Below, one piece after another: positions 45,140 through 49,302 of a stretch of DNA of 63,520 bases. The translations under genes and the position numbers were made by a program. How positions within the stretch are numbered: the stretch's first letter is position 1; the number at the start of each line of letters is the position of its first letter. The notes beneath the pieces are model-generated. The model made no database searches. It was not told the DNA's origin and saw nothing but the letters and a program-made list of their open reading frames with translations. Source of the DNA: a virus; the IMG/VR virus record IMGVR_UViG_3300008954_000051, positions 1 through 63,520 of that record; one strand, written 5' to 3'.

Positions 45140-47128
45140 ATGGCCACATTTCCAACCGCACCAGGAGTTCATGTTACCGAGAAGGATTTATCTACAATTG
45201 TTCCTGCTGTATCAACTACAGACGGGGCCCTGGTAGGTTACTTCAAGTGGGGCCCTGTTGAAGATATAAAATTAATTAGTAGTCAAGAAGAGTTATCAAA
45301 TGCTTTCGGAAAACCTTATCGAAATGCTAACGGAACCTTTTTTTGGTCTGCATCAAACTTCTTGGATTATAGTAATAGAATTCATGTGATGCGAGTTTCT
45401 GATGGAACTAATGCAACATGGGATGGAACGGCCGCTACTGTACTGAATGATGCCGACTATGTTACTAAATTTGATGCTGGGTCTATTGGAGCTGGATATT
45501 TTGTCGCAAAATATCCGGGAACATTGGGAAATTCTATTCAAGTCTCAATGGTTGATGGTACAGAAGGATTTAATAGTAGGGGTGTGAAAGTAGGTAGTAC
45601 AATATCCCTCTCATCGGGAGACACTACTATTGACTTTTCTAACAAGTACACAGATGATACTATAAACCAAGCCAGGGATGTTTTTACTGTTGGAGATAGT
45701 CTTACGATTGGCGGCCGGGTGGGTTGGGGCCGCAGACGAAGCACCTCTGCACTTTCTGGAGAATTTAAAGTTATAAATGTTGGCGGGCTCGCCGGCGCCG
45801 GGGATGCGAATACCATTACTATTAGCAACCCAATTACCCGAACTCTTACGTCTACTACAGTTTTCAGAAAATGGGAACATTATCATAATTTTGATAATGG
45901 TCCTTCTACATCAAACTTTTGTAAGGCCCGGGGAATAACAGATGATGAACTTCATATTATAGTGTCAGATAAGGATGGAGGAATCTCTGGTGTTCCTGGA
46001 ACAGTATTGGAACGATATATGCACGTTTCAAAGGCATCTGATGCTACAGATTCTGAGGGAGCGACCATTTATTTTAAGGATGTGATTGATGCACAATCTA
46101 AGTATATTAGAGTTTCGCGAAATGAACCCACTACAAACTGGGGCAACAGCACATCAGATTTATCCGGAACCTCATATACTGCATTAAATCCTGGGGTGTT
46201 TAGTAATACGTTTAGTGGAGGCACCGATCACACAGCCACAGAGACTTTGTTAGAAAATGGATGGCAGCTAATGGCAGATGCCGACCAAAAGGATCTTTCT
46301 CTTCTAGTAGGATCTGCTCCTGCTACAAATAATATTAATAGAACTATTGTTGAAGTTGCCGAAGATAGAACTGATTGTGTGGCATTCATTTCACCCCATT
46401 ATTCTGATGTTGTTGGATTGGTAGACCAAGAAGATATTGCACAAAACATCATAGACCATAGAAATGATGGGCTGTTGTCACTAAGCTCATCGTATGGAGT
46501 TATGGATTCTGGATGGAAGTATCAATTTGATAAGTATAATAACATATATCGATGGACACCGTTGAATGCAGATGTGGCGGGGCTTTGTGCAAGAACAGAT
46601 ACTGTTAGAGATGCGTGGTGGTCTCCAGCTGGATTCCAAAGAGGTAATATCAAAAACGTTGTTAAATTGGCTTGGAATCCCTCAGAAGTGTTTAGGGAAG
46701 AACTTTATAAGAATGGAATTAATCCTGTAGTTACCTTCCCAGGACAAGGTACCGTTCTATTTGGTGACAAGACAATGCTTACCCGTCCGAGCGCATTCGA
46801 CAGAATTAATGTTCGCCGTTTATTCATTGTGCTTGAAAAGGCTATTTCAAGAGCCGCGCAGTATTCGTTGTTTGAATTTAATGATGATTTCACTCGCGCA
46901 CAATTTAAAAATATGATCGAACCTTTCTTGAGAGACATCCAAGGAAGACAAGGAATATACGATTTCAGAGTTGTTTGTGATGAAACAAATAATACTGGGC
47001 AAGTTATAGACTTAAATCAATTTGTTGGTGACATTTACATCAAGCCTGCTCGTTCAATCAACTTTATTCAGTTGAATTTTATTGTAGCAAGATCGGGTGT
47101 GGATTTTACAGAAATTACGGGAAGATGA
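45140..47128 (+). CDS. 18: Tail sheath protein gp18
   Basis: A 662-residue contractile sheath subunit (T4 gp18 659). Family landmarks: TAPGVHVTEKDLSTIVPAVS, TDGALVGYFKWGPVEDIKLI, the central VAFISPHYSD, and the C-terminal core INVRRLFIVLEKAISRAAQY, FEFNDDFTRAQFKNMIEPFL and RDIQGRQGIYDFRVVCDETN. The C-terminal block holds the strands that interlink neighbouring subunits. GAGGAG precedes the ATG. Two short GC-rich islands (45712-45735 and 45781-45806) encode Gly/Arg-rich surface loops. Confidence 0.95.
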   Translation: MATFPTAPGVHVTEKDLSTIVPAVSTTDGALVGYFKWGPVEDIKLISSQEELSNAFGKPYRNANGTFFWSASNFLDYSNRIHVMRVSDGTNATWDGTAATVLNDADYVTKFDAGSIGAGYFVAKYPGTLGNSIQVSMVDGTEGFNSRGVKVGSTISLSSGDTTIDFSNKYTDDTINQARDVFTVGDSLTIGGRVGWGRRRSTSALSGEFKVINVGGLAGAGDANTITISNPITRTLTSTTVFRKWEHYHNFDNGPSTSNFCKARGITDDELHIIVSDKDGGISGVPGTVLERYMHVSKASDATDSEGATIYFKDVIDAQSKYIRVSRNEPTTNWGNSTSDLSGTSYTALNPGVFSNTFSGGTDHTATETLLENGWQLMADADQKDLSLLVGSAPATNNINRTIVEVAEDRTDCVAFISPHYSDVVGLVDQEDIAQNIIDHRNDGLLSLSSSYGVMDSGWKYQFDKYNNIYRWTPLNADVAGLCARTDTVRDAWWSPAGFQRGNIKNVVKLAWNPSEVFREELYKNGINPVVTFPGQGTVLFGDKTMLTRPSAFDRINVRRLFIVLEKAISRAAQYSLFEFNDDFTRAQFKNMIEPFLRDIQGRQGIYDFRVVCDETNNTGQVIDLNQFVGDIYIKPARSINFIQLNFIVARSGVDFTEITGR

Positions 47129-47136
47129 TATAAATA
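47129..47136 (+). promoter_or_regulatory. Late promoter box before the tube gene
   Basis: Exact TATAAATA one base after the sheath stop, 21 bases before the tail-tube start. Confidence 0.7.
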
Positions 47137-47157
47137 GTATCATATAGGAGAAAAAGA

Positions 47158-47706
47158 ATGGCCTTTAATGTAAATGATATTAGATCTAGATTAACGGGTG
47201 GTGGCGCTCGGCCTAATCTATTTAAAGTTTCAATGCCCTTTCCGGTTATTGCAGGAGGCGATAATGCAGCAGCCGCTGAAAAATTGACCTTCACTTGCCA
47301 TGGCGCCCAAATTCCTTCTGGGGATATAGGATCAATCGACATTCCATATTTTGGCAGATCTGTTAAGATGCCTGGAAATAGAACCTTTGGTGAATGGAGC
47401 CCTAACATATACAATGATGAAGACTTTATGATTTATGATTCAATACAGGCATGGATGAATGCGTTAAATTCTCATGTGACTAATGTTAGATCACCCAATG
47501 CATTATCATCTGTAGATTACACAACAGCCGCAGATGTTACACATTTTGCAAAAGACGGTTCAGAAATTAAAACTGTTCGATTAATTAATGTGTGGCCATC
47601 ATCATTAGCGGCAATTGATTTAGATTGGGGAACCAATAATCAATTAGAAGAATTTACCTGCACCTTTCAGTATGATTACTGGGAAGCTGTCGGTCTGACA
47701 ACTTAA
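47158..47706 (+). CDS. 19: Tail tube protein gp19
   Basis: A 182-residue inner tube subunit (T4 gp19 163). Seen are ARPNLFKVSMPFPVIAGG, LTFTCHGAQIPSGDIGSIDI, PYFGRSVKMPGNRTFGEWS, NIYNDEDFMIYDSIQAWMNA, and the final strand LEEFTCTFQYDYWE. These are the standard gp19 landmarks. AGGAG upstream and its own late promoter fit a protein needed in high copy. The gap after it holds a mini-ORF and a hairpin ahead of the portal gene. Confidence 0.95.
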   Translation: MAFNVNDIRSRLTGGGARPNLFKVSMPFPVIAGGDNAAAAEKLTFTCHGAQIPSGDIGSIDIPYFGRSVKMPGNRTFGEWSPNIYNDEDFMIYDSIQAWMNALNSHVTNVRSPNALSSVDYTTAADVTHFAKDGSEIKTVRLINVWPSSLAAIDLDWGTNNQLEEFTCTFQYDYWEAVGLTT

Positions 47707-47729
47707 TATAATAATTTTTTGGTGAAAAT

Positions 47730-47771
47730 ATGTTTAGTCGTGTAAGGTTTGATCCTTATACACAACTATAG
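47730..47771 (+). CDS. Possible 13-codon leader mini-ORF (MFSRVRFDPYTQL)
   Basis: ATG at 47730 opens 13 codons ending in TAG at 47769-47771, with GGTG just upstream. It runs through the 5' arm and loop of a hairpin and stops inside the 3' arm, next to the portal ribosome-binding site. Expression is unproven; the placement suggests a translated leader. Confidence 0.3.
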   Translation: MFSRVRFDPYTQL

Positions 47772-47776
47772 GGATC
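47751..47776 (+). promoter_or_regulatory. Hairpin covering the portal ribosome-binding site
   Basis: Arm GATCCTTATA (47751-47760) pairs with TATAGGGATC (47767-47776) over ten positions, one of them a T-G pair, with a six-base CACAAC loop. The AGGGA at 47770-47774 is the likely ribosome-binding site of the portal start at 47785, and it is inside the stem. No T-run follows, so it is not a terminator. Confidence 0.55.
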
Positions 47777-47784
47777 ATTATAAT

Positions 47785-49302
47785 ATGGCAGTAAAATTAT
47801 TCGGATTTACAATCGGCAGAGAGGATGAACAGGAAGAAAAAAAATTTCAATCGTTCGCCGCTGCGGATATTGATGATGGTGCATTAGAAATTACCCCCAC
47901 CGCAATTGGTGGTGCCTGGGGGGCTTATCTCGATATAGAAGGCACCGCTAAAAATGAATCTGAGCTTGTCAGTAGATATAGGGAGATGGCACTATATCCG
48001 GAGTGTGAATACGCTGTTGATGATATTGTCAACGAAGCCATCATCATGGACGAAAAAAAGCCACCGGTGTCTATTGTTTTAGATAACCTTCAACAACCAG
48101 AATCTATTAAAATTAAGATACAAGAAGAGTTTGACAATATTTGTAGGCTTTTAGATTTTAATGAGATGGGCTATGAAATTTTCCGTAGATGGTATATTGA
48201 TGGTAGATTATTTTATCATGTGATTATTGATGTTGAATCACCCAAAAAAGGTATTCAAGAACTTCGTCCAGTCGATCCTAGAAAAATGAAGCTTGTGCGA
48301 GAAGTTAGAAAGAAGGGTATGGATGGAAACCCTTCTGCGGTGTTGTACGCCAAGCCTAAAGAATATTATATTTACAATGAAAAGGGTGCTGCATCTGGCC
48401 AGGGCACCAATATCAAGATCGCCAAAGATAGTATTTGTTTTGTGCATTCCGGGCTTTTGGATGCAGCAAGAAAAATGATTATTTCTCATCTACACAAGGC
48501 TATTAAGCCTTTCAATCAATTACGAATGCTTGAAGATGCTGTAGTGATTTATCGTATCTCTAGGGCACCTGAGCGCCGTATTTTTTATATTGATGTGGGA
48601 AATTTACCTAAGATAAAAGCCGAGCAATACCTTAAAGATGTTATGACCAAATTCAAAAACAAATTGGTTTATGATGCATCTACAGGTGCAGTTCGTGACG
48701 AGCGCCAGCACCGAACCATGTTAGAAGATTACTGGCTTCCTCGAAAAGAGGGTGGTCGCGGTACTGAAATAACAACCTTGCCTGGCGGACAAAATTTAGG
48801 TGAAATTGAAGATATTGTATATTTTCAACGAAAGCTTTATAAGTCATTAAACGTTCCTGTTTCTAGATTAGAACCAGAGAGTGGATTTAACTTAGGAAGA
48901 TCTGCTGAGATTAGTAGAGATGAGGTGAAGTTTGGTAAGTTTGTGGGAAGGGCCCGGAAAAGGTTCACCCATTTATTTTCAGATCTGTTAAAAACTCAAC
49001 TTCGTCTTAAAGGAGTTATAACCATAGATGATTGGGATGAATTAAAAGAAGGAATACAATTCAGTTTCTTAAAGAATGTTCATTTCGCAGAATTGCAAGA
49101 GGCTGAAGTTTTTAGAAATCGTGTTGAATTGTTGCGTGACATGGAAGAATATAAAGGAACATATTTTTCTGGAGAATGGTTGCGTAAAAATGTCTTACTT
49201 CAGACTGATGCTGATATTGAGATTATAGACAAGCAGATTAAGAGCGAAGGCCTTGATGCAGAATCTGAAATGGGTTCAGAAGAAGGTTTAGACCAAAGGT
49301 GA
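47785..49302 (+). CDS. 20: Portal vertex protein gp20
   Basis: A 505-residue portal (T4 gp20 524), the dodecameric ring that starts prohead assembly and through which DNA is packaged. Landmarks: SRYREMALYPECEYAVDDIV, NEAIIMDE, DGRLFYHVIID, VDPRKMKLVREV, FNQLRMLEDAVVIYRISRAP, ERRIFYIDVGNLPKIKAEQY, PGGQNLGEIEDIVYFQRKLY and SLNVPVSRLEPESGFNLGR. I start at ATG 47785 (MAVKLFGFTIG); an in-frame TTG at 47749 would put poorly conserved residues in front. Translation may be controlled by the upstream hairpin. Confidence 0.96.
   Translation: MAVKLFGFTIGREDEQEEKKFQSFAAADIDDGALEITPTAIGGAWGAYLDIEGTAKNESELVSRYREMALYPECEYAVDDIVNEAIIMDEKKPPVSIVLDNLQQPESIKIKIQEEFDNICRLLDFNEMGYEIFRRWYIDGRLFYHVIIDVESPKKGIQELRPVDPRKMKLVREVRKKGMDGNPSAVLYAKPKEYYIYNEKGAASGQGTNIKIAKDSICFVHSGLLDAARKMIISHLHKAIKPFNQLRMLEDAVVIYRISRAPERRIFYIDVGNLPKIKAEQYLKDVMTKFKNKLVYDASTGAVRDERQHRTMLEDYWLPRKEGGRGTEITTLPGGQNLGEIEDIVYFQRKLYKSLNVPVSRLEPESGFNLGRSAEISRDEVKFGKFVGRARKRFTHLFSDLLKTQLRLKGVITIDDWDELKEGIQFSFLKNVHFAELQEAEVFRNRVELLRDMEEYKGTYFSGEWLRKNVLLQTDADIEIIDKQIKSEGLDAESEMGSEEGLDQR

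Follow-up and report, generated by a model that had tools for sequence, protein, structure and literature searches.

A hairpin predicted to mask the portal gene start behind the tail tube gene of a marine T4-like virus

The window, that is, the whole 63.5-kb stretch of DNA analysed here, is a fragment of a marine T4-like virus. Among its late genes are those for terminase, the sheath (gp18), the tube (gp19) and the portal (gp20). The gp19 tail tube gene (47158..47706, with its stop ending at 47706) was assigned by its PHROG tail tube match (E 2e-56), while gp20 (47785..49302) is a T4-type portal (Pfam Portal_T4, E 9e-178); these and all other features described below lie on the plus strand. 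The portal forms a ring of 12 subunits through which DNA enters the head and which starts head assembly, and the tube gene is an abundant one. How T4-like phages separate the two outputs is seldom asked. We place the true portal start at the ATG at 47785, since relatives start with MAxxLFGF. An extension of the portal from the TTG at 47749 was ruled out, as its frame is closed by a TAG in the close relative L110 and relatives use the ATG. The two genes are separated by a gap, or leader, of 78 nt (47707..47784), which contains the entire element and is equally long in L110.

The original prediction held that a ten-position stem buries the AGGGA ribosome-binding site (SD, 47770..47774) of the portal gene. 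This stem is present and is really 11 bp long. GATCCTTATA (47751-47760) pairs with TATAGGGATC (47767-47776), and a further pair, U47750-A47777, extends the helix, so that folding and pairing define a 5' arm (segment B, 47750..47760) and a 3' arm (segment C, 47767..47777), with one G-U pair, a 6-nt loop and the portal SD within the 3' arm. Folded alone, the 53-nt leader reached -12.8 kcal/mol, which 7 of 200 shuffles equalled. The stem was regained in none of 2000 shuffles of the 3' arm only, and in 0.07% of shuffles running from just past the leader ATG to the portal start. The local hairpin beats its shuffles, but a wider fold of 131 nt was unremarkable, with a z of only -1.18. Opening the portal SD costs 7.4 kcal/mol, the third rank among 34 gene starts in the window, and when only the upstream 30 nt were shuffled, the masking had a P of 0.066 in the window and 0.38 in L110. 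As in the T4 e/soc/I-TevI type, the longer transcript is predicted to form a stable helix that takes in the SD or AUG; an Rfam scan returned no family match above the gathering score for the hairpin or leader. We regard the predicted masking of the portal start by this hairpin as well supported, and we lean towards the view that it is functional.

L110, which is the same contig as L190 and L244, was the sole true close relative found (78% identical in the tube, 82% in the N-terminal part of the portal). Relatives were sought with the portal, the sheath, the tube and a two-genome tube profile, with three DNA patterns in IMG/VR and with one GTDB scan. No further close relatives emerged from these profile and DNA-pattern searches of IMG/VR or from the GTDB scan; IMG/VR held near-identical copies of the window virus (99.95%), and other DNA-pattern matches fall in unrelated contexts. 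Conservation is therefore judged from only two independent genomes, the window and L110. The first 36 nt of the gap, which contain a T6 run, an SD-like site and the leader ATG in both genomes, are 92% identical, and the next 45 nt, at 69%, are its most diverged part. Within this diverged part, 8 of the 11 pairs of the hairpin are the same in L110, two are altered on both sides (A-U to G-C and U-A to G-U) and a deletion removes a base from one, so that L110 keeps all comparable pairs. Slid registers pair in 24-57% of cells, versus 100% for the true register. All four arm substitutions lie in two complete pairs, for which our own estimate of the chance is 0.001-0.004. Column shuffles reached the observed pairing score in 121 of 500 cases, a comparison in which two sequences are too few to be decisive.

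One alternative is that an AT-rich leader folds by accident over a chance ORF, and that both were kept by descent in a recently diverged relative. This is a minority possibility that we take seriously, because there are two genomes only, because ATG-started ORFs over hairpins are common in such gaps and because 16% of random window positions are as structured as the portal SD. It has to contend with a pairing that was held through coordinated changes while the surrounding sequence differs at almost one base in three, and with local shuffles that almost never regain the stem.

A second part of the original prediction concerned a mini-ORF, MFSRVRFDPYTQL, of 13 codons (47730..47771), said to be read through the 5' arm and to stop inside the 3' arm. 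The window sequence agrees: the ORF starts at the ATG at 47730, and its TAG (47769-47771) lies inside the 3' arm. It is preceded by an SD-like GGTGA (47721..47725), located after the T6 run with a 4-nt spacing to the ATG. A 13-codon ORF is unremarkable in a gap as AT-rich as this one. Among the 207 relatives' gaps of ordinary length, about 25 have an ATG-started ORF, 5 or more codons long, that overlaps a hairpin, and only that of the window has a 5-nt SD. In L138, L136 and L172, ATG ORFs of 11-18 codons start just past the gp19 stop and cross a hairpin that leaves the portal SD uncovered.

The window thus has the short ORF with an SD, reading into a masking stem, that is typical of leader-ORF attenuators. 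The leader ORF of L110 is likewise open, but its SD is weaker (AGTGA instead of GGTGA). The leader ATG lies 55 nt from the portal ATG in both genomes, and a 1-nt insertion before segment B shifts the mini-ORF frame in L110 (MFGIGVLGSLYISIGPL). The resulting peptide of 17 residues is unrelated to that of the window and ends at a TAA 1 nt before the portal ATG, so that the stop within the stem is not kept; neither a conserved leader peptide nor conserved stall codons were found between the two genomes. For the 53-nt leader of L110, an alternative fold is almost as stable, and the SD is paired there too. Of the two losses in relatives that had been named as telling against the prediction, that of the stem pairing and that of the mini-ORF frame, L110 shows only the latter. 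Because pairing and start are kept while frame and peptide changed, selection, if any, would act on the pairing and perhaps on the openness of the ORF, not on the peptide.

We modelled a ribosome on the leader, obtaining static energy estimates rather than kinetics. With the ribosome on codons 5-9, the cost of opening the portal SD drops to about 1.5 kcal/mol. On codons 1-3 the cost rises to about 10 kcal/mol, and past codon 9 the ribosome covers the portal SD, so the modelled effect is more complex than the proposed opening of the stem by a ribosome on the mini-ORF. Opening of the stem by leader translation is plausible, though unproven, and is compatible with both genomes; that leader translation belongs to the mechanism seems to us less likely than not.

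The 5' arm can also pair elsewhere. Segment A (GTGTAAGG, 47740..47747), which spans mini-ORF codons 4-6, can form a helix with 47754-47761, which would release the SD; CCTTATA (47754-47760) is common to both hairpins. In RNA cut before the 3' arm, the A:B hairpin of the window has 8 bp and -10.4 kcal/mol (z -3.1). L110 combines a different A sequence with the same B in a hairpin of 9 bp and -9.4 kcal/mol (z -2.5); by hand alignment, segment A differs at 2 of 8 positions there, both still forming standard pairs. Shuffling A gave P values of 0.012 in the window and 0.058 in L110. The A:B and B:C hairpins are mutually exclusive in both genomes, as the alternative hairpins of an attenuator are. 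In modelled nascent RNA, A:B persists to about 68-72 nt of leader, after which B:C wins. Its pairing in both hairpins explains why segment B is better conserved than the rest of the variable stretch. That the A:B switch is part of the mechanism is possible, though we are doubtful. The distant relatives L218 and L219 may offer a second two-state leader: upstream sequence pairs with their portal SD as well, and their nascent RNA can adopt a rival fold.

Turning to transcription, an exact TATAAATA late promoter precedes gp18 and gp19 in both the window and L110, and another precedes the gene after gp20 in the window. The copy in front of the tube gene (47129..47136), in the gp18-gp19 gap, is the presumed source of a read-through mRNA; it occupies the loop of a 6-bp hairpin (ATGATA/TATCAT, 47125-47143). 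No consensus late promoter for the portal was found in the tube-portal gap of the window or L110, where the best late-promoter-like sites are TATACACA (two mismatches) and TATACATA (one mismatch), respectively. The only sigma-70 promoter-like pair in the gap was rejected, its -10 being at the portal ATG itself. The search for an intrinsic terminator in the window gap found 0 sites; the B:C stem is followed by TTATAATATGG, and the combination of a GC-rich stem and a T-run is absent. With neither a terminator nor a consensus late promoter in the gap, the tube mRNA probably serves the portal as well. If so, nothing in the gap other than the hairpin can be seen that would reduce portal output.

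This conclusion would change if TATACACA (47757-47764), in the 5' arm and loop, were a late promoter after all. As in the T4 e/soc/I-TevI type, RNA starting from about 47770 would then be made without the 5' arm, the SD would be masked only on read-through RNA, and the portal would be made only from its own late transcript. The site is well placed, 28 nt before the portal ATG compared with 29 nt for gp19, and its L110 counterpart has only one mismatch. Late promoters lie inside hairpins in 34 of the 163 relatives' gaps examined first, in one cyanophage-like lineage a CTAAATAG promoter is enclosed by pairing between CCTAC and the SD GTAGGAG, and the combination of promoter and hairpin is proven in T4 (PMC3014915, PMC2988022). 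Nevertheless, TATACACA departs from the consensus at two positions, and of 50 listed T4 late promoters all but two have at most one mismatch (PMC2988020). The window phage uses the exact motif for gp18, gp19 and the gene after gp20, and the conservation of CCTTATAC is already accounted for by pairing with both A and C. No late promoter giving RNA without the 5' arm was recognised in either gap, and we judge this explanation quite unlikely.

We compared 212 distinct tube-portal gaps from T4-like relatives, 207 of them of ordinary length and 5 holding an extra gene. Insertions of about 500 nt between gp19 and gp20 occur in L031, L032, L054, L074 and L124, where four of the loci have a small extra gene and L124 has another ORF, which resembles an HNH-type endonuclease. 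About a third of the gaps of ordinary length (72 of 207) have a terminator-like hairpin, about a third of the whole set (67) have a late-promoter motif of the TATAAATA type, and 40 of the 212 have no terminator-like hairpin, late promoter or hairpin of any kind. The T4 gap contains two GC-rich hairpins and, after them, TATAAATA; in syn9 the late promoter is within a hairpin, and in HTVC008M a hairpin ends in TATAAATA; the L193 gap holds a consensus late promoter and a strong hairpin distant from the SD. In L226, L228, L235, L211, L055, L224 and L351 (syn9), TATAAATA, CATAAATA or GATAAATA occupies the loop or upper stem of strong gp19-gp20 hairpins. In the cyanophage-like lineage (L043, L057, L077, L080, L081, L084 and L093), the 3' arm contains the portal SD and the loop contains the late promoter, which is the layout of T4 gene e and I-TevI, apparently on gp20. 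SD masking from upstream is not a general property of the tube-portal gap: 11 of 63 gaps reached P<=0.1, where about 6 would be expected.

Given how frequent terminator-like hairpins are in this gap, T4 included, the window hairpin might be a remnant or variant of the terminator or mRNA-stabilising hairpin with which the tube transcript ends in many relatives, its overlap with the SD being incidental. Its stem is AT-rich, with no T-run after it and no terminator-like site anywhere in the window gap, and the nearest outgroups, L191 and L111, have gaps of 14-16 nt without a hairpin; we regard this origin as decidedly improbable. The tube-portal gap is a control point that lineages have solved differently, by terminators, by late promoters, by promoters in hairpins and here, apparently, by RNA masking. 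Judged from sequence, the window phage probably relies on a folded RNA, which a short leader ORF may open, where relatives use transcription signals to separate tube and portal.

Our favoured explanation, to which we give an even chance, is that an RNA element acting in cis attenuates translation of the portal on the tube-portal read-through mRNA. The tube mRNA would read through into the portal, and segment B would pair with C, hiding the portal SD and keeping portal translation per mRNA well below that of the tube. During RNA synthesis A:B would form first, leaving the portal SD briefly free, and a ribosome crossing the mini-ORF would strip B from C and then terminate near the portal start. 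We infer each of these elements, namely read-through transcription, masking in the cell, the timing of A:B and mini-ORF translation. A more elaborate version seems unlikely to us. Here the portal-to-tube ratio of a lytic T4-like phage would be set by a three-segment switch (A:B versus B:C) that ribosomes operate while translating a leader ORF, whatever peptide it encodes. In such a switch, a ribosome at the leader start would block A and lock the portal off, and one at codons 5-9 would open it. If true, the switch would amount to translational attenuation of a virion structural gene, sensing translation itself, and would take the place of the terminator and late promoter found in this gap in relatives. 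In line with the original statement that no such control was known for a T4-like portal gene, we found no described portal control by start-site masking or a leader in the literature (open papers).

Several known systems resemble parts of this arrangement. In resistance leaders of the cat and erm type, a short ORF that has its own SD runs into a hairpin hiding the next SD, and an alternative pairing frees that SD. The window likewise has a short ORF with an SD entering an SD-masking hairpin and an alternative pairing that would free the SD, but it has no drug or stall peptide, its peptide is not conserved, and ribosome passage, not stalling, would have to act. Phage gene-to-gene coupling (T4 dsbA-33; coat-lysis of RNA phages) also has upstream translation exposing or feeding a masked downstream start; there the coupling ORF is a protein gene, whereas here it would be a non-conserved leader of 13-17 codons. 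The masked starts of T4 e, soc, 49 and I-TevI are documented (PMC3014915, PMC2988022), and their hairpins, like those of segB and Aeh1 mobE, share with the window a late-gene SD paired on read-through RNA. In T4, however, a consensus late promoter makes RNA without the 5' arm, whereas the window lacks a consensus promoter and the gene concerned encodes a structural protein of the head and follows another late gene. Finally, the gp19-gp20 terminators and late promoters of T4, syn9, HTVC008M and relatives occupy the same gap, with the same presumed uncoupling of tube and portal output; those signals act on transcription, whereas the window element would act on translation.
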